Below are positions 35,452-47,649 of a DNA stretch of 64,000 nt, piece after piece (within the stretch, counting starts at the first letter, position 1; each line of letters starts with the position of its first letter). Below the pieces are notes generated by a model. The model did no database searches. It saw nothing but the letters and a program-made list of their open reading frames with translations, and was not told where the DNA came from. The stretch covers positions 1 through 64,000 of the forward strand of contig NZ_JAFMPP010000001.1 in NCBI RefSeq assembly GCF_017349315.1. The letters are read 5' to 3'. Made by a program: the position numbers and the translations under genes. The DNA comes from Jiella flava. Its GTDB lineage: Bacteria > Pseudomonadota > Alphaproteobacteria > Rhizobiales > Rhizobiaceae.

Positions 35452-36138
35452 CTAGCTCCTCGCACCACCGATTGTTGAGCCCACAGACTCGGGGGCGACG
35501 TCGTCGACGGCTTTGCGGACGATCAGGATGTGCTTGCGCATGGCGGCTGCAGCGCGTTCAGCGTCGCCTTCGATAATGGCGTCGACGATGACGGCGTGTT
35601 CGGCATGGGAAGCCTTGGGCCGGTGGGATCCTTCAAATTGCAGATTGCGGAAGGGCGCGAGGCGCCGGCGCACGGCCAGTGTCGTGCGTTCGAGAAATTC
35701 GTTCTGCGATCCGGCGTAGATCGCCGTGTGAAAGCGCTCGTTGTGGATGCGATAGGCCATGATATCGTTCTCGGCAGCGGCGCTTGCGCCACGATGGTGG
35801 AGCGCCATCAGATCCTGCAGCGCCGCGCCGGAGAGGTGTTGGGCGCACAGTTTCGCACATAGGGCCTCAAGCTCGGCCATGACGACGAAGGTCTCGTCGA
35901 GCTCGGCCTCCGACAAGGTGGTGACGACGGCGCCGCGATGCGGCCGCGACAGCGCCAGGCCATTCGCCTCCAACTGCCGCAGCGCCTCGCGCACCGGTGT
36001 GCGCGACACCCCGAATTCGGCCGCGAGCGTGGTCTCGTCGAGGGCCTCGCCGGGCCGCAAAAACCCGTGGACGATCCGGTCGGCCAAGGCTTCGCGGATC
36101 ATGTCGGCCTGAGTGCGCTTGGTCACGCCATCGCCCAT
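35452..36138 (-). CDS. GntR family regulator with FCD domain
   Basis: A 228-residue regulator. The winged helix (about 8-75) has LRPGEALDETTLAAEFGVSR and TPVREALRQLEANGLALSRP. The all-helical FCD ligand domain (about 80-215) has FVVMAELEALCAKLCAQHLS and HNERFHTAIYAGSQNEFLER, with metal-binding His/Asp positions. It is the last gene of the cyanuric acid type operon, 22 bases after atzF, so it probably senses a pathway compound and controls the operon promoter more than 10 kb away. Confidence 0.93.
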   Translation of the reverse strand: MGDGVTKRTQADMIREALADRIVHGFLRPGEALDETTLAAEFGVSRTPVREALRQLEANGLALSRPHRGAVVTTLSEAELDETFVVMAELEALCAKLCAQHLSGAALQDLMALHHRGASAAAENDIMAYRIHNERFHTAIYAGSQNEFLERTTLAVRRRLAPFRNLQFEGSHRPKASHAEHAVIVDAIIEGDAERAAAAMRKHILIVRKAVDDVAPESVGSTIGGARS

Positions 36139-36160
36139 CTCGCAATGTCTCCTTCAGGCG

Positions 36161-37960
36161 TCAGGAATCTGCCCGCTCCGATTGCAGATACGCCCTCCAA
36201 CCTTCGAAGTGGGTGATTTCGCACGCCCCCGTCAAGCCCGCCGGCTCACAAAGGAAACCGCAGACGCAATCGTTGCCGGCCAACGTGACTTGGCCGATGC
36301 TGAGCGGCTGCGGAATGGCCGCGACGAAAGCGGCGAAGGCGGCCGGCTCCAGCGACCAGATCTCGACCGCAATACCCGGCCCGGCAAAGCCCGGCTCGCG
36401 CGCAAGGCCCGGCTTCGGAGGCACGGTGTCGAGCGCGTAGAAGCGATAGTGAGGCGCGGTGCGGTCGGCTTTGACGAAGATCCCGCCGCGATCGGTGAGT
36501 TCGTGGTTGAGCGGCATGCCGGCCAAATGCGCGCCGACGACGGCGATCGCGATTCGCCCCGGCGCCTCGATCTGCGGCATGGTCGGCAAGGCGATGTCCC
36601 GGGCCTTGCCGGCGCCGCAACCGGCCGCCGCATGCAACTTTTCTGCGAATTCCGCCAGCGCGTCGTCGCTGTCGCGCGGGGCGACGAGCTGCACGCCGAA
36701 GGGCAGCCCGGTGGCGGTGAAGCCCGCCGGAACGGCGATTGCGGCACAGCCGAACAGATTGGCGAAATTGGTGAAGCGGCCGAAGCGGGCATTGAGCGCG
36801 ATCGGGTCGGCCTGCATCGCCTCGACCGTCTGGATGTCTGGCGAGGTCGGGAGCAACAGCGCGTCGACCTTGGCCCATTCGGCCTCCGCCTCCCGGCGCA
36901 GGGCTTCCAGCCGATAGGCACCGCGGAAGGTTTCGACAGCGCTCATACCGCGCGCGCCCTCGATGATCCGGCGCACCGTCGGTTCGATACTGCCTGGCTT
37001 TTCATCCAGAAAGGTCTCGATGGCGGCGAGCCGCTCGGCCACCCAGGGTCCCTCGTAAAGCAATGCGGCTGCCTCTCTAAACGGGCGGTAGTCGAAGGGC
37101 ACGATCGTCGCGCCCAGCGCCGCCGCCCGGACGATCGCCGCCTCATAGAGCGCGGCATAGGCGTCGTTGCCGTAAAACTCCCGCTCGTCCTCGCCCGGCA
37201 CGCCGAGCCGCAAAGCGCCCGGCAGCGCCGCCGCGCTGAAGCGGCGCGAATAGGCGTCTGTCGGATCGAAGCCCTCCGCGACCTGCCGCGCCGCAACGCC
37301 GTCGGCAACGCTCGCAGCCAAGATCGTGACGACGTCGACCGATCGGCAGGCCGGCACGACGCCCGTGGCCGCGATCCGGCCCGGCGACGGCTTGATGCCG
37401 ACGATATTGTTGAAGGCCGCCGGCACCCGGCCGGAGCCGGCCGTATCGGTGCCGAGGGCGAAGGCGGCGCAGCCGCTCGCCACGGCCACCGCCGAGCCCG
37501 AGCTCGATCCGCCTGAGACATAGGCCGCATCAAACACGCAACGCGGTGCGCCGTAGGGCGAACGCGAGCCGTTGAGGCCGGTGGCGAACTGATCGAGATT
37601 GGTCTTGCCGACGCAGATCGCCCCGGCCGCGATCAGTCGTTCGACCACCGTGGCGTTGGCCGCCGGCTGATAGGCATAGTCCGGGCAACCAGCGGTTGTG
37701 GCCAAACCCGCGACGTCGATATTGTCCTTCACCGCAAAGGGCAGCCCCCAAAGTGGCAGGCTGGCGGGATCGGGCGCGCGCGCCATGAGCGCCTCGGCCG
37801 CCGCGCGCAAGGTTTCAAGCGGCACGCGGGCGATGAAGGCGGCGGGATCGCCGGTCTCCATCCGCGCGGTGACGGCCTCCATCACATCCGCCGGGCTGAT
37901 CCCGGCCGCATAAAGTGCCCGTAGGCTGGCGAAGTCGAGGATGGTCGGAAGTTCTCTCAT
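36161..37960 (-). CDS. atzF: Allophanate hydrolase
   Basis: Hydrolyses allophanate to ammonia and carbon dioxide, the last step of cyanuric acid and urea-amidolyase type pathways. The 599-residue protein has an amidase-signature N-terminal domain with the Lys-Ser-Ser triad: Lys78 (FAVKDN), Ser151 (SGGSSSGS) and Ser175 (DTAGSGR), spaced 24 residues apart as in AtzF. The C-terminal domain (about 470-599) has VGAHLAGMPLNHELTDRGG, as in full-length AtzF. A GGGGGAG site precedes the ATG at 37960. It is 102 bases after the cupin gene. Confidence 0.94.
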   Translation of the reverse strand: MRELPTILDFASLRALYAAGISPADVMEAVTARMETGDPAAFIARVPLETLRAAAEALMARAPDPASLPLWGLPFAVKDNIDVAGLATTAGCPDYAYQPAANATVVERLIAAGAICVGKTNLDQFATGLNGSRSPYGAPRCVFDAAYVSGGSSSGSAVAVASGCAAFALGTDTAGSGRVPAAFNNIVGIKPSPGRIAATGVVPACRSVDVVTILAASVADGVAARQVAEGFDPTDAYSRRFSAAALPGALRLGVPGEDEREFYGNDAYAALYEAAIVRAAALGATIVPFDYRPFREAAALLYEGPWVAERLAAIETFLDEKPGSIEPTVRRIIEGARGMSAVETFRGAYRLEALRREAEAEWAKVDALLLPTSPDIQTVEAMQADPIALNARFGRFTNFANLFGCAAIAVPAGFTATGLPFGVQLVAPRDSDDALAEFAEKLHAAAGCGAGKARDIALPTMPQIEAPGRIAIAVVGAHLAGMPLNHELTDRGGIFVKADRTAPHYRFYALDTVPPKPGLAREPGFAGPGIAVEIWSLEPAAFAAFVAAIPQPLSIGQVTLAGNDCVCGFLCEPAGLTGACEITHFEGWRAYLQSERADS

Positions 37961-38062
37961 GCTCCCCCCTGGGGCTCTGGCTGCGTGTTGGAAAGACTCG
38001 GAAAGGTCAGCGGTGACGACCGCTCGCAAACGGCCGCGGCCGGCCGACCAAATGATGCAGCG

Positions 38063-38413
38063 TCATGTCGGCTCATCGAGGATCCGCACCGGTGCGGCCC
38101 AGGCAATCAGCACCACGCAGCCCGCGTCTGACCACACGCGGTGGCGCGTTCCGGCCTCGTTGACGACCAGCGTGCCCGCCGCATAGGTGCCGGCATCATC
38201 GCTCTGGCTGCCGGAAAGGACGAGAATGGTTTCCAGCCCGGTGTGCTCGTGCCACGGCACCGTCGCGCCCGGCGCGTAACGCAACAACGCGAGCGCTGGC
38301 CCCTCCGGCTCGCTCGGGCGATGCAGATGGGCGATGTCGACGCCGGGCCGAAACGATTCGAAGGTCACCGTGGTCAGATCGAGGGTCAGGAGATCGGGAA
38401 AGACGTTCGGCAT
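38063..38413 (-). CDS. Small cupin-domain protein
   Basis: A 116-residue single cupin barrel: GATVPWHEHTGLETILVLSG carries the metal-binding HxH and Glu, and AGTLVVNEAGTRHRVWSDAG carries the last His. The start overlaps the cysteine hydrolase stop by one base (TGATG); a GTG one codon upstream is possible. Single-domain cupins serve as small isomerases, decarboxylases or sensors, so the role here is open. Its place in the operon makes an accessory catabolic step plausible. Confidence 0.85.
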   Translation of the reverse strand: MPNVFPDLLTLDLTTVTFESFRPGVDIAHLHRPSEPEGPALALLRYAPGATVPWHEHTGLETILVLSGSQSDDAGTYAAGTLVVNEAGTRHRVWSDAGCVVLIAWAAPVRILDEPT

Positions 38414-39111
38414 CACAGGCTCGCCTCCGCGCGCCGTGACGCCTTGGCGGCTTCCAGCCCGGCAAGAATCGTCGCGACCTCCGTGGCCCAGCCGACGATC
38501 GCGCCTTGCGCGGTCATCATGTCGATCGCGGCGTGCTTGAAAGCGGCGAAATAGCTCTCGGTGGCGTCCTCAGCGATGAGGCATTCGTAGCCACGATCGT
38601 TGGCCTCGCGCATTGTCGTCTGCACGCAGACCTCGGTGGTGACGCCAGCAAAAACCAGTTGCGTTATGCCCAGTGCCTCAAGATGGGCGCCAAGATCGGT
38701 GGCGCAGAAGGCGCCCTTACCGGGCTTGTCGACGACAGACTCGCCCGGCGCGGGCTGAAGCTCGGGGACAATCTCCGCCCCCGGCTCACCGGCGATCAGG
38801 ATGCGGCCCATCGGCCCGGCATCGCCGATCCTCAGGCCCGGCGCTCCGCGCAGGCGCTTGGCCGGCGGGCAATCGGCAAGGTCCGGGCGATGGCATTCGC
38901 GAGTGTGGATCACCGGCCGGCCGGCGGCGCGAAAGCCGGCGATTAGCCGCGCCGTCGCCGGCACGATCGCCTGCAAACGGGACACGTCGTTGCCAAGGCT
39001 TGCGCCAAAGCCGCCAGGCTCCAGAAAGTCGCGCTGCATGTCGATGACGATCAGCGCCACGCGGGACGGATCGAACGCAAAGGCGAAGGGACGGGCGGCG
39101 ATCGTCTCCAT
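38413..39111 (-). CDS. Isochorismatase-like cysteine hydrolase, second copy
   Basis: A 232-residue cysteine hydrolase related to the biuret hydrolase in the same operon. Catalytic Asp24 (VIDMQ), Lys129 ([10 protein letters not shown]) and Cys162 ([11 protein letters not shown]) are all present with near-identical spacing. It lacks the N-terminal extension of the first copy. Biuret or ureidoacrylate hydrolysis are possible roles; the real substrate is unknown. One-base TGATG overlaps link it to the ABC ATPase before it and the cupin after it. Confidence 0.88.
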
Positions 39112-40697
39112 CAGCCGTGCCCCGCCATGTGGCCGCCGATCACGGTGGTGTCGGCCTCGGCCCCGCCGGCGCATTCGTAGACGATGCGGCCCTCGAACAT
39201 CACCATGATGCGATCTGACAGGGCGACGATCTCGTCGAGATCCTCGGAAACGAGCAGCACCGCGGTGCCGCGATTGCGCGCCGCGATCAGCTGGGCGCGG
39301 ATGTCGGCCACGGCGCCGAAGTCGAGCCCGAAGCAGGGATTGGCCGCGACCAGGAGATCGGTCTCGCCCTGCAGCTCGCGGGCGAGCACCGCGCGTTGGA
39401 CATTGCCGCCCGACAAGGTGGCGACCGGCGCGGACGGCGACTGGGTCTTGACCGCATAGGCGGCGATCAGCCGCTCGGCCTCGCTGCGCATACGCTGGCG
39501 GTCGAGGAGGCGGATCCGCCGGCCTTCGGCGTCGCGATCAAAGCTGCGAAAGGCGAGATTGTCCGAGACGCTCATCCGCCCGACACAGGCGTTGCGCAGC
39601 GGCTCTTCGGGCAGGCAGCGAACTTTAAGCTTCTGGGCGGCGGCGCGGCTCGCGTCATAGGGCTCGCCCTTGACCAGGAGCGTGCCGGCATCCGGCGCTT
39701 CCTGGCCGGAGAGAAGATCCACCAGCCGCTTCTGGCCGTTGCCGGAAATGCCGGCGATGCCGACAATCTCGCCGGCAAAGACGTCAAGCGCCTCGATGGC
39801 GATCGAGCCGCGCGTCGCTGCATCGCCCGAGCGCACGGCTTCAAGCCGCAGCACCGGCGACGAGCCGGGCGTGGTCGCCTCCCGGTCCGGCACTTCGGCA
39901 AGATCGCGTTCGCCGATCATCATCGCCGCCATATCGGCGATCGAAAGATCGGCTACCGTCCCCTGCCCGGCCTTGATGCCCCGGCGCAACACCGTGACAC
40001 GGTCGCAAAAGGCGGTGACCTCGGCAAATTTGTGGGTGATCAAAAGCACCGCCATGCCGGTTTCGCGTGCGCGCTTTCGCAAAAAGCCGAGCACCTCGCG
40101 CGCCTCGTCAGGCGTCAGCACCGAGGTCGGCTCGTCGAGCACCAAGACCCGCGATCCGAGATAGAGCTGCTTGAGGATCTCGGTCTTCTGCCGCTCGCCC
40201 GCCGACAGCCGATCCACCGGCGTATCGAGCGGCACCTTCAGCGGCATGGTCTCCAGAAAGCGGATCAGCGCGCGGCGTTCGGCCTTCCAGTCGACGACGC
40301 GAGGCACGTCGACCCGCGACATCACCAGGTTTTCCAGAACCGTCATCGCCGGCACCAGGGTGAAGTGCTGATAGACCATGCCGATGCCGAGCCGGCGCGC
40401 GTCACGCGGGTTCTCGATCGTCTGCTCGCGGCCGTCGAGCACCACATCACCGGCATCCGGGCGATAATAGCCGAGAATGCACTTCACCAGCGTCGACTTG
40501 CCGGCGCCGTTTTCGCCGAGCAGCGCGTGGAATTCGCCGGCCTGCAAGGCCAGCGAGACGTTGTTCAGCGCCGTGAAGTTGCCGAAATGCTTGGTGAGGC
40601 CCACCGCTTCGAGCAGCGGACGGGCCTTGCCGCTTTCGTGGTCAGCGGCTGATTCCTCCCGCCTGGCCGGGTCATGCAGCGCGGCAATGGCGGACAT
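39111..40697 (-). CDS. BMP-family ABC transporter ATPase (two ABC domains)
   Basis: A 528-residue tandem ATPase of the sugar/nucleoside class used with BMP-type binding proteins. The first domain is canonical ([51 protein letters not shown]). The second has a degenerate P-loop ([17 protein letters not shown]) but keeps [16 protein letters not shown], as usual for this class. It pairs with the two permeases at 43.6-45.7 kb, so the transporter genes surround the hydrolase genes. Confidence 0.94.
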
Positions 40698-41812
40698 CAG
40701 CGTTCTCCTTGAAACCGTCGGGCGATGATGGCGACCGGGCCGCCGCCATCCGGCCCCTGATGCTCGGCCCCGCCGGACACGAACAGTGCACTCGACCCGG
40801 TCAGCGCGGCGAGAGCTCCACCGACGAAGGCGCGGGCATGGCGGGTGGCGGATAGATCGCTGTCGTCGAGCATGGTGTGACGGGCGCCGCGCAACCGGCC
40901 GCTGCTGCCGGGCTCGGCTTTGGCGAGCACCGCCACCAGCCTCCCGCGCTCGGCCGCCGTCAATTGGCCGTCGGCGGCAAAGCCGAGCCGGCGCAAGGCG
41001 TCGCGCACCGGCAGAATGTCGATCGCATCGTCCATCACCGCATGGTCGATCGCGAGTGGACCGGACCAGCTCCGGCTCATGCCGAGCACGACGATTTCAT
41101 GGTTCAGCAATTCGACACCGGCCGAGGTGCTGGCGCGGCCCGACCAGAGATCGGTGTCGCGCCCGATCGCCGCCTCGCTCAGCGCATCGGCCGCGATTTC
41201 GCCCAAGGCCAGCGCCACGCCAAGCGCCGACGCACCACGGGTAAACCCCATCGATTTCAGCGTATCGCGCGTCACCACCGACGCCCCGCGCGCTTCGGCC
41301 GCCGCGATCCGGTCGACGGTCAAGAGCGGGCATTTGATCTGAACGAAATGAACGTCGGCGGGATCGTCGATCCCGGCGTCGCGCATTGCCGCTGCGACGC
41401 CATTCGCGACCATTTCGACCTCGTCCATCCGGCCGAGTTGCTCGGGCAAAAGGCTATCGGTGTGTGCGACACCGATCGCCAGCGCCGAGCGGCCGACCGC
41501 CGGCGCAGCGGCCGGCTCCCCGCGGCGCTCGAAGACGATGAGATGCGGCGACAGCGCACCTTCGGTCCCGCCCGACATCACCATCGCGATCTGAGCGACC
41601 GCCTCGTCGGGCAGAGACCGGCCGAGCGCCGCCTTCAGTGCCGAAACGGCAAAGGCACGGGTGAAATCGTTGACGCAGCCATTGCCCTCGGTCTTGCCGA
41701 GGATCGCGGCGATCGCGGCCGGCTCGATCTGCCCTGCGGCGATCGCCGCTTCGAGGCCGGACACGTCGTCCGGCGCCCGGGTCGCGATGAGATGGACCTG
41801 CGCCTGCCGCAT
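40697..41812 (-). CDS. Ring-opening amidohydrolase: cyanuric acid amidohydrolase or barbiturase
   Basis: Opens the ring of cyanuric acid (AtzD/TrzD) or barbituric acid. The 371-residue protein has the threefold repeat of this rare fold. The three Lys/Ser pairs are seen: Lys40/Ser80 (LGKTEGNG, MSGGTEG), Lys160/Ser230 (QIKCPLLT, STSAG) and Lys298/Ser346 (AKAEPG, VSGGAEHQGP). Further hallmarks are SMGFTRGASALGVALALGE and RHTMLDDSD. The biuret and allophanate hydrolases in the operon favour cyanuric acid. It is linked to both neighbours by one-base TGATG overlaps. Confidence 0.92.
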   Translation of the reverse strand: MRQAQVHLIATRAPDDVSGLEAAIAAGQIEPAAIAAILGKTEGNGCVNDFTRAFAVSALKAALGRSLPDEAVAQIAMVMSGGTEGALSPHLIVFERRGEPAAAPAVGRSALAIGVAHTDSLLPEQLGRMDEVEMVANGVAAAMRDAGIDDPADVHFVQIKCPLLTVDRIAAAEARGASVVTRDTLKSMGFTRGASALGVALALGEIAADALSEAAIGRDTDLWSGRASTSAGVELLNHEIVVLGMSRSWSGPLAIDHAVMDDAIDILPVRDALRRLGFAADGQLTAAERGRLVAVLAKAEPGSSGRLRGARHTMLDDSDLSATRHARAFVGGALAALTGSSALFVSGGAEHQGPDGGGPVAIIARRFQGER

Positions 41813-42537
41813 CAGCCGATCGCCGCGATCAAGGCGTCGCTCATCGCCACCGCGCCGAAAACGCCGCCTTGCATCTTGACCATATCGAGGGCCGCCAGAT
41901 GATTTTCGAGCTTGGTCGCGCCGGTACAGTCGGACAGCACCAAGCATTCATAGCCGCGATCATTGGCGTCGCGCATGGTGGTGTGCACGCAGACATCGGT
42001 GGTCACGCCCGTCAGCACGAGGTTGCGGATGCCCTTGGTCCGCAGCACCAGTTCGAAGTCGGTGGCGAGAAAGCTTCCCTTGCCCGGCTTGTCGATGATC
42101 GCCTCGCCGGCGACCGGCTGCAGTTCGGGAATGATCTCCCAGCCAGGTTCGCCGCGCACCAGAATGCGCCCGCACGGGCCCTGATCGCCGATGCCCGCGC
42201 CAATCCGCTGCGAGCGCCAGCGCTTGTTGGCCGGAAGATCCGACAAATCCGGCTTGTGCCCTTCGCGGGTATGGATGACGGTGAAGTCCTTGGCGCGGGC
42301 GACCTTCAGCAGGCGGGCGATCGGCTCGATCGGCGCGCGGGTCAGAGACAAGTCGTAGCCCATGGAATCGACGTAGCCGCCAGGGGCGCAGAAATCGACC
42401 TGCATGTCGATCACCACGATCGCCGTGTTGGCGGGGCGCAAATCGCCGTCGAACGGCCAGAGATAAGGATCGGAGGCGACGGTGCGGCCGCCCGGCACAA
42501 AGGCCGCGTCAATCCGTTCATCGAGCGTTGCTGGCAT
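41812..42537 (-). CDS. biuH: Biuret hydrolase (isochorismatase-like)
   Basis: Hydrolyses biuret to allophanate and ammonia. The 241-residue protein reads very much like rhizobial BiuH: the region AIVVIDMQVDFCAPGGYVDS, then REGHKPDLSDLPANKRWRSQ and IGAGIGDQGPCGRILVRGEP. The triad Asp44, Lys150 and Cys183 has the 106 and 33 residue spacing I recall for the characterised enzyme. GAAAGGAG precedes the ATG at 42537, which sets the start. It lies between formamidase and the ring-opening hydrolase. Confidence 0.92.
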   Translation of the reverse strand: MPATLDERIDAAFVPGGRTVASDPYLWPFDGDLRPANTAIVVIDMQVDFCAPGGYVDSMGYDLSLTRAPIEPIARLLKVARAKDFTVIHTREGHKPDLSDLPANKRWRSQRIGAGIGDQGPCGRILVRGEPGWEIIPELQPVAGEAIIDKPGKGSFLATDFELVLRTKGIRNLVLTGVTTDVCVHTTMRDANDRGYECLVLSDCTGATKLENHLAALDMVKMQGGVFGAVAMSDALIAAIG

Positions 42538-42588
42538 CAGCGGGCTCCTTTCAAGGTCCAATTCGAGTCCGATCGGCAAGATGCGGTG

Positions 42589-43605
42589 TCACTCCGCCGC
42601 GTCGTCGAAGCGTTCGCCATAGCGCCGGGTCGGCGCCGGAAAACCGCAGGAGGTGCCGTCGACGACCTTAACCTCGTCCTCCCAGGGCAGCCGGTATGTG
42701 CCGTCGACGAGATCCTGCATGTAGCTGTAGGGGCAGTCCTGCGCCCCGCCCTTGACCGCGACATAGCCGCGATGGCCGAGCTGGTAGATGTTGTTTTCCA
42801 CGCCCCAGCCGAGGCGTGCCTCGCGCACCAGGTCAGGCCGCACCTCGGCGGTGATGATCTCGTCGGCGCGGCCGGTGGTGCCGTGGGCGATCACCGTGCC
42901 GTCGAAGTTGACGATCATCCCCTCGCCCATCGAATCGAAAGAGCCGTCCGAACCGCACATGCAGACATTGGCGGTGATCATCAGGTTCTGGAAGGCGTTG
43001 GCCTGGTTGGTGAAGCGCCATGACTGGCGGATCGGCGCGGTATAGCCAGCCGTGCGCAGCATGATCTCGGCGCCCTGATAGGCGCATTCGCGCGCCATTT
43101 CCGGGAACATCCCGTCATGGCAGATGATCAGCGCCAGCTTGCAGCCCTTCGGCCCGGTGATCACCGGAATGCCGCGATCGCCCGGCTCCCACGGCTCGAC
43201 CGGCACCCAGGGGTGAAGCTTGCGGTAGTTGAGGACGATTTCGCCCTCGTCGTCGATGACGAGACCGGTGTTGTAGGGCATGCCGCCCGGATTCAGCTCC
43301 ATGATCGAGAAGCAGCCCCAGATGGCGTTCTCGATGCACGCCTTGCGGAAGGCCGCGACCTCCGGCCCGTCGATCCGGCACATGATCTGCGGGTTGGTGT
43401 CCATCGACAGGCCATGCAGCGAATATTCAGGGAAGACGACGAGATCCATCGTCGCCATGTTGCGCCGGGCCTTGCCGACCATCGCGACGATCGTCTCGGT
43501 CTGCGCCGCAAGATCGGCCTTGGTCGCCACCGTCGGCAGCTGCAGCTGCACGCAACCGATGACGACGCCGGCCTCAGATTTGTTCAGTCCACCCAGTCCG
43601 TTCAT
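42589..43605 (-). CDS. Formamidase-like nitrilase-superfamily amidase
   Basis: A 338-residue carbon-nitrogen hydrolase closest in motif and length to formamidase AmiF (about 334). The triad is Glu60 (VVFPEYSLHG), Lys129 (NYRKLHPW) and Cys162 (LIICHDGMFPE). Both NGLGGLN at the start and the C-terminal YGERFDD fit AmiF. GGGAGA lies about 8 bases before the ATG. Formamide is not a known intermediate of cyanuric acid breakdown, so the operon may accept further small amides. Confidence 0.88.
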   Translation of the reverse strand: MNGLGGLNKSEAGVVIGCVQLQLPTVATKADLAAQTETIVAMVGKARRNMATMDLVVFPEYSLHGLSMDTNPQIMCRIDGPEVAAFRKACIENAIWGCFSIMELNPGGMPYNTGLVIDDEGEIVLNYRKLHPWVPVEPWEPGDRGIPVITGPKGCKLALIICHDGMFPEMARECAYQGAEIMLRTAGYTAPIRQSWRFTNQANAFQNLMITANVCMCGSDGSFDSMGEGMIVNFDGTVIAHGTTGRADEIITAEVRPDLVREARLGWGVENNIYQLGHRGYVAVKGGAQDCPYSYMQDLVDGTYRLPWEDEVKVVDGTSCGFPAPTRRYGERFDDAAE

Positions 43606-43620
43606 GACGCAGTCTCCCGA

Positions 43621-44544
43621 TTATTTGGTGATCGACAGTTCGCGCGGGGCGCCGTCGAGCGCCCGGTTGCGTGAGGAAGTGAAGAACAAGATGACGAGCG
43701 TGAGGATGTATGGCGCGGCGTAGAAGAGATAGTAGCCGGAGGTCACCCCCACCGACTGCAGCGCCGGCCCGAGCGCGCCGGCCCCGCCAAACAGCAGGGC
43801 CGCGCCGAAACAGGCGATCGGATTCCAGCGGGCAAAGATCACCAGCGCGACGGCGATCAGCCCCTGGCCGGAGGAGATGTGCTCGTTCCACGAGCCGGGA
43901 TAATAGAGCGAGAGATAGGCGCCCGCCACGCCGGCCATGAAACCCCCGAAGGCGGTCGCGCCGATCCTGACCGGCAGGATCGGATAGCCCATCGCCCGGG
44001 CCGCATCGGCGCTGTCGCCGACCATACGAATGATGAGGCCGAGCCGGGTGCGCTTGAACATGAAGGCGAGCAGAACGGCGACGAGAATGCCGATCAGGAA
44101 CAAGGGGCTCACCTCCAAGGCGGCCCTCAGCTGCGGCACGTCAGACCAGCCGCCGAAGGAGATCGCCGGCAGCATCGGCGCCGCCGGCTGGATCAGCGGC
44201 TTGCCGAAGAAGAAGGCGACGCCGGTGCCCAGCAGCATCATCGCGATACCCACAGCAATATCGTTGACCCGCGGCAGCGAGCACACGGCACCGTGCATCA
44301 GGCCGAACAACACCCCGGCAAGCCCGGCGATCAGAACACCGAGCCAGGGCGAGCCGGTCAAGAGCGAGCCGCCATAGCCCGCCATCGCGCCAAATACCAA
44401 GGTGCCCTCGAGACCGAGATTGATGCGCCCGGATTTTTCGGTGACGCATTCGCCGAGACTGACAAAGAGAAACGGCGTGGAAACCCGGAGCGCGCCGCCG
44501 AGAACGGCGAGCGGCACCGCCCAGATGCCGAGATCGGTGGTCAT
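43621..44544 (-). CDS. BMP-type ABC transporter permease 2
   Basis: A 307-residue inner-membrane permease of the nucleoside/basic membrane protein class (RbsC-like fold), with about eight hydrophobic segments. Conserved blocks are FVSLGECVTEKSGRINLGLE and GTLVFGAMAGYGG, then FMFKRTRLGLIIRMVGDSAD with AARAMGYPILPVR. The ATG overlaps the first permease's stop by 4 bases. It lies 15 bases before formamidase. Confidence 0.93.
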   Translation of the reverse strand: MTTDLGIWAVPLAVLGGALRVSTPFLFVSLGECVTEKSGRINLGLEGTLVFGAMAGYGGSLLTGSPWLGVLIAGLAGVLFGLMHGAVCSLPRVNDIAVGIAMMLLGTGVAFFFGKPLIQPAAPMLPAISFGGWSDVPQLRAALEVSPLFLIGILVAVLLAFMFKRTRLGLIIRMVGDSADAARAMGYPILPVRIGATAFGGFMAGVAGAYLSLYYPGSWNEHISSGQGLIAVALVIFARWNPIACFGAALLFGGAGALGPALQSVGVTSGYYLFYAAPYILTLVILFFTSSRNRALDGAPRELSITK

Positions 44545-45662
44545 GGCGCCCCCTTCCGCGTCAGGCCGAGCGCCGGCAGCAGGCGGCCCGACAGGGTTTC
44601 CGATACGAGAATGGCGACGAACAGGATGCCTTGCAGGACGAGCACGGTCGCATCCGGCAGATCCATCCGGCGCTGGACGAGGCCGCCCGCCGCCTCGATC
44701 CCGCCGATCAAAAGCGCCATCGGAATGATCGCCAACGGGTTCTGCCGGGCGAGAAAGGCGATCAGAATGCCGGTATAGCCATAGCCGGCGATCAGCGAGG
44801 CGTTGGCCGAGCCCTGCACGGCGGCGACATCGATCACCCCGGCCAGCCCCGCCGCGGCGCCGGCGGCGGCGGTAAAGGCGAGGATCAGCCGGCCGACCGG
44901 CAGCCCCTGCACCGCCGCCGCCCGGGCGTTGCCGCCGGCGATCCGCGCGGCAAAGCCGAAGGTGGTGCGCGACATCACGAAGCCTGCGACAAGGCAGGCG
45001 ACGACGCCGACGGCAAAGCCCCAGTGAACATCCATGCCGGGGATGTCGCCGATCCTGAAATTGCCCGGCAGCGGCGGCGTCGACGGCTTGTTGAGGCTTG
45101 CCGGGTCGCGCAGCGGCCCCTCGACGAAATGCTGCATCAAGGCGATGGCGATATAGGCCATCAGCAGGCTGGAGATGGTTTCGTTGACGCCGCGATAGTG
45201 CCGCAACGCCCCGACCGCGCCGATCCACAACCCGCCGAGCGCCATGCCGGCGAGCGCCATCGCGGCGATGCCGACGACACCGGGGGCGCCGGCAAGCCAG
45301 GTGCCGGTCGCCGCTGCGGCGAGACCGCCGAGGACGAAAGCGCCCTCACCGCCGATAACGATCAGACCAAGCTGCGCCGGGAGCGCGACGCACAGCGCCG
45401 TCAACAACAGCGGCGCCGTGCGCGTCATGGTGTTCTGGAGCGAGAACCAGGTGCCAAAGCCGCCCCGATAGACCAGATAGTAGAAGGCCTCCGGCGATTT
45501 GCCGACCAGCGCGATGAACACACCGAAAAGCCCCAGCCCAATGATCAACGCCAGAAGCGGGATCAGGATGGCTTCCAGCCGGCGCCGCGCGACCTCGCCG
45601 AGGAACGGCCGGCGCCGCGCCTCTATCGTCGATGTCGGCAAGGTGGACTGCATCTCGCTCAT
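44541..45662 (-). CDS. BMP-type ABC transporter permease 1
   Basis: A 373-residue inner-membrane permease of the same class as its partner. Hydrophobic segments start at about 32 (ILIPLLALIIGLGLFGVFIA). LLLTALCVALPAQLGLIVIG, GEGAFVLGGLAAAATG and SLLMAYIAIALMQHFVEGPL are conserved. The ATG at 45662 has GAGG 5 bases before it and follows the binding-protein stop by 7 bases. Confidence 0.93.
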   Translation of the reverse strand: MSEMQSTLPTSTIEARRRPFLGEVARRRLEAILIPLLALIIGLGLFGVFIALVGKSPEAFYYLVYRGGFGTWFSLQNTMTRTAPLLLTALCVALPAQLGLIVIGGEGAFVLGGLAAAATGTWLAGAPGVVGIAAMALAGMALGGLWIGAVGALRHYRGVNETISSLLMAYIAIALMQHFVEGPLRDPASLNKPSTPPLPGNFRIGDIPGMDVHWGFAVGVVACLVAGFVMSRTTFGFAARIAGGNARAAAVQGLPVGRLILAFTAAAGAAAGLAGVIDVAAVQGSANASLIAGYGYTGILIAFLARQNPLAIIPMALLIGGIEAAGGLVQRRMDLPDATVLVLQGILFVAILVSETLSGRLLPALGLTRKGAP

Positions 45663-45669
45663 GCCGGCC

Positions 45670-46782
45670 TCAGGAGGTCGAACCGATGACGCCCTCGACG
45701 AGGTAGTCCATCGTCTCAAGTTCGATCGCGGTCTCCGGATAGGCCTTGCCCGCCGCGACGACGGTGTTGCCCTTATTGTCCTTCAACGGCCCCTTGATGA
45801 CCGCGTAGCCGCCCTTCATCACCTCGGCCTTGACAGCGTCGGCCTGCTTGCGGGCCGCTTCGGTGACCGCCGGGCCATAGGGACTGATCTTGACGAAGTC
45901 CTCGGCAAGACCGCCGCGCACGAAGTTCGGCAGTGGCTGACCAGCCAGCGCCTTTTCAGCGAACATCTTATAGACCGTCGCCCAGTGCCACTCGGCGCCG
46001 GTGAGATATTTCTGCGGGGCAAGCGGTGCCTGACTGGTGTGATAGCCGGAGACAAAGGCGCCGCGGCCGGTGGCGGTCTGGACGAAGACTTTCGGGCTGT
46101 CGACATGGCAGGTCAGAACATCGGCGCCCTGATCGACCAGAGCGTTGACCGCCTCGGCCTCCTTGACCGGCATCGCCCAGTCGCCGGTGAAAATCACCTG
46201 GGTCTTGATCGAGGGGTCGACCGAGCGCGCGCCGAGCGTATAGGCGTTGATGTTCATCAAGACCTGCGGGATCGGCTTGGCGGCGACGAATCCGAGCCGC
46301 TTGGACTTGGTCATATGGCCCGCGACGATACCGCAAATATACTGGGCGGTGCCGATATAGCCGAAATAGGAGCCGGCGTTCTTCGGGTCCTTCGGCGTCC
46401 ACAAGCCACCGCAATGGCGGAACTCAACGTCCGGATACTGCTTGGCCGTGTCGACGACGAAGGGCTTGTAATAGCCGAAGGAGGTCGGGAACAGGAGCGA
46501 GGCACCGTCGAGCTGGATCATCGATTCCATCGTCTTCACGACCGCATCTGACTCGGCGACGTTTTCCTCCTCGGTGATAGTCAGGCCGGCCATATCCTTG
46601 ATTGCCGCGGCGCCCTCGGCATGGCTCTGATTGTAGCCGAAGTCGTCACGCGGGCCGACATAGATGAAGCCGGCGGTGAGACTTGCGGCGGCAGCAGGCG
46701 ACACCCGCATCAAAAGCGGCGAAGCGCCAAGCGCGGCACCTGCCATCAGGAAGCGGCGGCGATTGAGAGGCAGCATGGTCAT
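45670..46782 (-). CDS. BMP-family substrate-binding protein (Tat signal)
   Basis: Periplasmic receptor of 370 residues of the PnrA/BMP lipoprotein family, but with a twin-arginine signal (LNRRRFLMAGAALGA) and no lipobox Cys. The mature region has YVGPRDDFGYNQSHAEGAAA, FVVDTAKQYPDVEFRHCGGL and VDQGADVLTCHVDSPKVFVQ. BMP proteins bind nucleosides or related nitrogen heterocycles, which suits cyanuric acid or a similar ring. It is the first gene of the operon, with a GntR-like site just upstream. Confidence 0.92.
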   Translation of the reverse strand: MTMLPLNRRRFLMAGAALGASPLLMRVSPAAAASLTAGFIYVGPRDDFGYNQSHAEGAAAIKDMAGLTITEEENVAESDAVVKTMESMIQLDGASLLFPTSFGYYKPFVVDTAKQYPDVEFRHCGGLWTPKDPKNAGSYFGYIGTAQYICGIVAGHMTKSKRLGFVAAKPIPQVLMNINAYTLGARSVDPSIKTQVIFTGDWAMPVKEAEAVNALVDQGADVLTCHVDSPKVFVQTATGRGAFVSGYHTSQAPLAPQKYLTGAEWHWATVYKMFAEKALAGQPLPNFVRGGLAEDFVKISPYGPAVTEAARKQADAVKAEVMKGGYAVIKGPLKDNKGNTVVAAGKAYPETAIELETMDYLVEGVIGSTS

Positions 46783-46824
46783 CGAAGATCTCCGTTGTGC
46801 GACCGATCGGGTTCTCAGATGCAG

Positions 46825-46834
46825 TTGCATACAA
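46825..46834. promoter_or_regulatory. Candidate GntR operator before the cyanuric acid type operon
   Basis: TTGCATACAA, a TTG-N4-CAA dyad of the kind bound by FCD-type GntR proteins, lies 43 bases before the start of the first operon gene. AT-rich DNA (46840-46920) next to it probably holds the promoter. Confidence 0.4.
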
Positions 46835-47649
46835 TTCTCATGCCAATTTCATTTTCTTTTAAAAACAGTATCTTGTGAAAATCGGCACGATCTCATCTGA
46901 ATAAAAATTAATCAGCGTGAGGCATTTTGTGCCGGCAGCCACACCGACTTCGGGCGCCCTTTCGACATCCATGTCGAATCGCGGCCCAGCAACCGATGAC
47001 GGAAGCCGCATTGCGAAGGCACCCTGACATCCCTGGGGAACAGGCATCGGACAGATCCCTGACACGCAGCGGCAAACCGCAAAAAGCGTGGCCGGCGCAC
47101 GCCGCTTCGAGCAGGCCCGCCGAAACGCCCATTCCTTGCCATCATCTCCGGCCATGTTCAGCCAGGATCGGCCATGGACCCGAGCGCAATGGGAACAAAG
47201 CCGACCCAGCTTTTCGCCGTGACTTGCAGATTGATCGCAGGATGACACATCAACCAAGCAGCCAATCTGGATTATCCACTCAATGTCGTCGTAAGGATCG
47301 AATCAACCGAGACCAGAAGAATGCGGCATAGCGCCTTTGAATTCGATTTCGTGCCCGGATAAGCTTCTCACAGGAACGCCACAGAGCCACACATGAACCG
47401 ACACAGATTTTCTTAGCGATTGAATGCCGTGGCCCGCCAAGCAATTTGCGGTTTGCGGCATCTGGAGCAACGGCCCACCCCACCCTTTCGCGTGCGACGC
47501 CACCAAGCCAATCGATGGCGGAACGGACGTGCTTGACGATCCTGTCGAGATTGTGAAATCCGTCATATCACTACGGCAGTTTCCGACCCCACCACGACGA
47601 CAAACACCACGCATCTCCCAATGGAGAAGGCGGCAATGCGGACTTGGAT
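46835..47649. other. Gene-free region between the operon and the polysaccharide genes
   Basis: An 815-base stretch between divergent genes. The left 85 bases are AT-rich and likely carry the promoter for the leftward operon. The rest is moderately GC-rich and has short open frames on both strands with no family resemblance and odd composition. Nothing more could be assigned. Confidence 0.35.

Follow-up and report, generated by a model that had tools for sequence, protein, structure and literature searches.

The window analyzed in this study is a stretch of 64,000 nucleotides from Jiella flava, in which eleven intact open reading frames on the minus strand form one run at positions 35452–46782. 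In 5' to 3' order, they are predicted to encode a BMP-family substrate-binding protein, two ABC permeases, a formamidase, the biuret hydrolase BiuH, the cyanuric acid hydrolase AtzD, an ABC ATPase, a cysteine hydrolase of the triuret hydrolase (TrtA) type, a small cupin, the allophanate hydrolase AtzF and a GntR-family regulator. Four successive joints, BiuH/AtzD at position 41812, AtzD/ATPase at 40697, ATPase/TrtA at 39111 and TrtA/cupin at 38413, overlap by a single base, so the eleven genes are a tightly packed unit. A preliminary description of this DNA had read the run as an eleven-gene minus-strand operon in which import and breakdown form one unit. All of the genes were found to be present and intact, and the view of a single unit was supported. 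The operon probably scavenges nitrogen from condensed ureides, that is, it would take up triuret, biuret and cyanuric acid and break them down to ammonia, as judged from the predicted proteins. It would thereby hold, in a single operon, a complete route for three nitrogen compounds tied to fertilizers, herbicides and urate oxidation.

The importer genes occupy the front of the operon. The BMP-family protein (45670–46782; 370 amino acid residues) matched PF02608 with 122 bits, the gathering score being 24.1, and possesses a TAT-like leader. Its start is probably at 46782 (RRRFL leader) rather than at the ATG at 46830, a position that falls in the promoter region. Permease 1 (44541–45662) and permease 2 (43621–44544) both contain BPD_transp_2, and the ATPase (39111–40697) contains two ABC_tran stretches. 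The GntR-family regulator (35452–36138) closes the operon; several GntR-type models matched it, all under their cut-offs. Upstream of the BMP gene, a sigma54-like promoter on the minus strand (46845–46830) and a palindrome, ATTGTATGCAAC (46835–46824), overlap and together span 46824–46845.

By its gene content, the operon is not new: a Rhizobium strain used for studies of the pathway has nearly the same gene set, so that the operon represents a known system in well-preserved form. Plasmid pRL10 of Rhizobium leguminosarum (johnstonii) 3841 carries nine genes, from BMP to cupin, in the order found in the window, with a gntR gene adjacent, and the protein identities between the two ranged from 45 to 81%. 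BiuH of pRL10 was identical to the aligned stretch of 6azo over 232 residues, strain 3841 being the source of the solved BiuH. Different from the window, where the AtzF and GntR genes close the operon, pRL10 has a divergent gntR at the front and no atzF after the cupin gene. The absence of a nearby atzF is also noted in PMC5806882. Ammonia oxidizers were described in 2025 as having trtA, trtB, biuH and atzF together with bmpA-nupABC, and gntR appears in the synteny legend (PMC12625717). TrtA, BiuH, AtzF and the BMP importer are alike in these bacteria and in the window, whereas the nitrifier genomes of that study lack atzD. TrtA, BiuH and AtzF also occur together in Herbaspirillum, as in the window (PMC7948467). 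In Pseudomonas sp. ADP, the atzRSTUVW genes belong to a pathway that uses AtzEG and AtzH rather than BiuH, and its AtzT is 37% identical to the BMP protein of the window. The operon and the pathway described in the preliminary description thus stood, the latter lacking the triuret entry described below, and its claim of novelty did not.

Enzymes and proposed pathway

Enzyme families were scored against the curated cut-offs of NCBIfam and domains against the gathering scores of Pfam. BiuH (41812–42537) reached 409 bits on NF050097, whose cut-off is 370 bits. Thirteen residue positions described in PMC7948467, six of which differ between the reference TrtA and BiuH, were inspected, and BiuH of the window had the BiuH letter at all 13. 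The second cysteine hydrolase (38413–39111) scored 254 bits on the BiuH model, under the cut-off, and its closest solved relative was 6xix, the triuret hydrolase of Herbaspirillum. It possessed the TrtA letter at 13 of the 13 positions, including F35, N41, A134, E160, Y187 and I205 as well as the catalytic triad; in relatives, position 134 was Met or Ser in 9 of 51. These residues assign the protein to the TrtA type. The preliminary description had listed the protein and missed both its type and the triuret entry that it implies. Since carboxybiuret is the product of TrtA as well as of AtzD (PMC7948467), the operon would have two entry points to biuret, one from triuret and one from cyanuric acid. 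AtzD (40697–41812) reached 570 bits on the equivalog model NF052395 (cut-off, 360 bits), with 4nq3 as its best match in the PDB. AtzF (36161–37960) reached 748 bits on TIGR02713 (cut-off, 511 bits), and its C-terminal AH_C domain, PF21986, scored 152 bits. The route from cyanuric acid to ammonia by AtzD, BiuH and AtzF, proposed earlier, was supported by these scores and residues.

Nitrogen limitation would turn on the sigma54-like promoter, presumably under the control of NtrC, and an inducer would release the GntR protein. The BMP-type ABC importer would take in small planar ureides; triuret and biuret are its most probable cargo, and cyanuric acid may be carried as well. AtzD would then open cyanuric acid and TrtA would deaminate triuret, both giving carboxybiuret, which would lose CO2 either spontaneously or perhaps with the help of the cupin. 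Finally, BiuH would convert biuret to allophanate and AtzF would convert allophanate to ammonia and CO2. The enzyme steps of this scheme are assigned by sequence comparison, while the importer ligand, the roles of cupin and formamidase and the regulation are proposed more tentatively.

Occurrence of the cassette with and without AtzD

The gene order BMP-permease-permease-BiuH-ATPase-TrtA, with or without AtzD and hereafter called the cassette, recurs in dozens of genomes. The search for the same neighborhood that had been suggested earlier thus indicated that the arrangement is not due to chance. The window was compared with 80 AtzD loci, 40 TrtA regions and two paralog regions from its own genome, giving 123 sources in all. 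The cassette was found with AtzD in 32 of them and without AtzD in 20, while 50 had AtzD without the cassette and 21 had neither. The figure of 50 is too high, because three of these loci (L045, L063 and L082) hold pieces of the cassette and several contigs are short. TrtA matches occurred in 41 genomes, from which 40 regions and the window were read; the cassette was present in 21 of the 40 regions, one of which (L116) had AtzD elsewhere in the locus. A phylum-wide search identified the cassette in 12 of 15 regions read, two of which had AtzD in the locus and outside the slot between BiuH and ATPase. Moreover, no AtzD match at E ≤ 1e-40 was found in 25 of the 33 genomes (20 + 1 + 12) whose cassette lacked AtzD in that slot; three of the 33 (G093, G567 and G553) had AtzD in the same locus, and the contig of another (G288) stops short of the BMP gene. 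Because different queries supplied the samples, the shares given here are not prevalences.

Two quick trees were also built. In the first, of 52 cassettes, the label for AtzD required six changes, all of which were forced by starred branches; in the second, of 82 AtzD proteins, the label for the cassette required five, four of them forced. These numbers do not tell gain of AtzD from its loss. As far as gene order goes, the operon of the window is the AtzD-bearing version of a triuret/biuret cassette. Given that the cassette often lacks AtzD, its importer may serve linear ureides first.

The cupin (38063–38413; PF12973) contains three His and one Glu residues that were kept in all 35 aligned cupins, the window included. 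It was seen in 16 of the 32 cassettes with AtzD and in 11 of the 20 without, cut contigs being counted as absent. As this His3-Glu set is kept and the gene overlaps trtA, a fair guess is that the cupin is a carboxybiuret decarboxylase, i.e., a candidate for the TrtB role. TrtB is reportedly defined in a 2020 paper by Aukema. No cupin match was found in five cassettes from other classes of the phylum (L158–L162), and the cupin is therefore not indispensable. A link between cupin and carboxybiuret was not found in the literature searched, and the word "cupin" is absent from the main text of PMC12625717.

The formamidase (42589–43605) is of the AmiF type, with 571 bits on the equivalog PRK13287 (cut-off, 406 bits), and was the sole match in the genome at E ≤ 1e-20. 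It fills one slot in 20 of the 32 cassettes with AtzD and in 7 of the 20 without. A literature search joining formamidase with biuret returned just one paper, unrelated by its title. One guess for the substrate is an N-formyl ureide.

Several other loci were also observed. Five cassettes (L010, L011, L018, L026 and L039) had no close AtzF, and an amidase 31–35% identical to AtzF followed TrtA. Among the AtzD loci without the cassette, three (L024, L037 and L012) had ABC transporter genes near AtzD, including one for an NMT1-type binding protein in L037. Dihydroorotase/allantoinase-like genes were near AtzD in L024 and L012, genes for ATZ/TRZ-type amidohydrolases in L024 and L037 and an FmdA-type formamidase gene in L024. 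These three loci look like a second, different AtzD pathway. A cassette without AtzD was also found on a conjugative IncF plasmid of Klebsiella pneumoniae (L203, 1802–11425), flanked at either end by IS transposase genes; its genes were atzF and those for BMP, two permeases, formamidase, cysteine hydrolase, ATPase, a further cysteine hydrolase and GntR. On an Escherichia coli plasmid (L204, 7995–15205), a gene for a TrtA-like cysteine hydrolase (56%) was next to the genes for DUF2877, fdrA, DUF1116, carbamate kinase and cytosine permease, and a match at E ≤ 1e-60 occurred in 77 Escherichia plasmid records.

The BMP importer, its pocket and its regulation

The closest solved relative of the BMP protein was AtzT, a BMP protein that binds triazines and was published in 2019 (PMC6834077). 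The suggestion in the preliminary description that such binding would be new thus did not hold. AtzT binds guanine at 0.11 µM, ammeline at 0.36 µM, 2-hydroxyatrazine at 2.2 µM and cyanuric acid at 340 µM, and Glu165 holds guanine in its pocket (PMC6834077). Glu165, Asn218 and Asn220 of AtzT are replaced by Gln, His and Asp, respectively, in the BMP protein of the window, and His218 and Asp220 are also found in purine-type BMP proteins. The BMP proteins and their upstream regions were compared in 64 rows, which include L063 and L082 although these are not full cassettes; L063 was the one row with an unreadable pocket. None of the 63 readable cassette BMP proteins had Glu at position 165, all of them having Gln, Ser or Thr. 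In contrast, purine-type BMP proteins had Glu in 84 of 89 cases, Asp in two and Leu in three, these last five being the ones with 38–39% identity. In addition, AtzT positions 139, 165, 238 and 256 co-varied strictly across the cassette BMP proteins, which gave two pocket subtypes. The Gln subtype (Gln165, Tyr238 and Trp256) comprised 44 rows, including the window, and the Ser/Thr subtype (Ser/Thr165, His139, His238 and Tyr256) comprised 19.

Sites similar to the sigma54 consensus TGGCAC-N5-TTGC, at 10 or 11 of 11 bases, were found in 45 of the 64 BMP upstream regions, and RpoN and NtrC are both encoded in the genome. The palindrome, near ATTGCATGCAAT, was first noticed in an alignment of six sequences, namely the window and five relatives. 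It was present at ≥10 of 12 bases in 45 of the 64 regions and overlaps the -12 element in the window. With a GntR gene counted wherever it stood in the locus, provided that its identity was at least 40%, the palindrome accompanied such a gene in 39 of 41 regions and was present in 6 of the 23 that had none (Fisher, 1e-8). After removal of the six rows that were the source of the motif, the figures were 33 of 35 and 6 of 23.

A tentative reading, to which we give slightly less than an even chance, is that the cassette BMP proteins form a distinct subfamily for ureide import. Their pocket would be a former guanine pocket, in which Glu165 has given way to Gln, Ser or Thr and the aromatic sandwich is kept, and it would hold planar triuret, biuret or cyanuric acid. 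Sigma54 would switch expression, and the -12 element would carry a site for a GntR repressor. The two co-varying subtypes may reflect two ligand preferences, one for linear ureides and the other for the ring. If true, the cassette BMP proteins would be dedicated importers for products of fertilizers and urate oxidation, and the entry of ureides into the cell is reduced to a question of binding with a named residue, position 165. A search of the literature, with most subscription papers outside it, revealed no study in which a ligand had been tested for a BMP protein of the cassette.

Several results weigh against the scheme proposed above for the operon. AtzD lay inside the cassette, between BiuH and ATPase, in 30 of the 32 AtzD-bearing cassettes, which fits an importer shared by the ring. 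The Ser/Thr pocket was found in 14 of 30 AtzD-labelled and in 5 of 33 other readable BMP proteins, a difference that follows clades, is not corrected for the tree and has L082 and L116 entered as without AtzD; some importers may therefore be ring-tuned. The change of the pocket is a single clade difference and not a set of repeated events. Since AtzT holds cyanuric acid only weakly, the BMP fold alone is no promise of ring uptake. As for regulation, the sigma54-like site of the window itself is weak (9 of 11 bases, p = 0.075), and sigma54-like sites were not in excess in the whole window (19 versus 23.5 expected). The palindrome is a candidate GntR operator whose tree-corrected support was too thin, the link between GntR and palindrome amounting to five independent tree pairs with a median p of 0.25.

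The position of AtzD within the cassette, the binding of triazines by AtzT and the higher share of the Ser/Thr pocket beside AtzD would also fit an importer dedicated to an s-triazine ring, be it cyanuric acid or another, in which case the operon would primarily be a triazine operon. This is unlikely. The Gln-type pocket of the window is also present in 28 BMP proteins labelled as without AtzD, AtzD matches are missing from most of the genomes whose cassette lacks it in the slot, as given above, and the affinity of AtzT for cyanuric acid is low. The wide occurrence of this importer cassette without AtzD thus weakened the suggestion in the preliminary description that the BMP protein binds the ring.

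Less likely still is the view of the BMP protein as an ordinary importer for purines or nucleosides that was caught in the operon, the enzymes then acting on intracellular products of purine oxidation. The nearest solved relatives do hold guanine or adenine, and PMC12625717 labels such genes as nucleoside transporter. However, the Glu165 that holds guanine is missing from every readable cassette BMP protein and kept in nearly all purine-type ones, and the host already possesses a second BMP transporter (L154, 6672–17728) of the purine type. The latter lies beside genes for guanine deaminase and xanthine dehydrogenase (XdhB/XdhC), in a cluster for purine import and oxidation. A purine or nucleoside importer was disfavored on these two grounds, which calls into question the usual label of the cassette BMP proteins as nucleoside importers.

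Finally, barbiturases belong to the same family, PF09663, as AtzD, and a barbiturase at this position would turn the operon to the degradation of barbiturate derived from pyrimidines. This identity was rejected as very improbable, given that the protein passed the AtzD equivalog cut-off and scored 343–440 bits against five solved cyanuric acid hydrolases, compared with 256 bits against barbiturase and 222 bits against another ring-opening amidohydrolase. Moreover, BiuH and AtzF carry on from biuret and not from ureidomalonate. These scores support the prediction of a cyanuric acid hydrolase rather than a barbiturase and disfavor action on barbiturate alone, which had been named earlier as a way in which the triazine reading could fail. 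The AtzD translation also contains the calcium loop SGGAEHQGPDGGG, a motif of cyanuric acid hydrolases (PMC6557486) that is common to barbiturase and hence not specific. The genes flanking the operon, encoding an IclR regulator, a mannonate dehydratase-like protein and an ABC permease on one side and an RgpF-like protein on the other, look unrelated to it.

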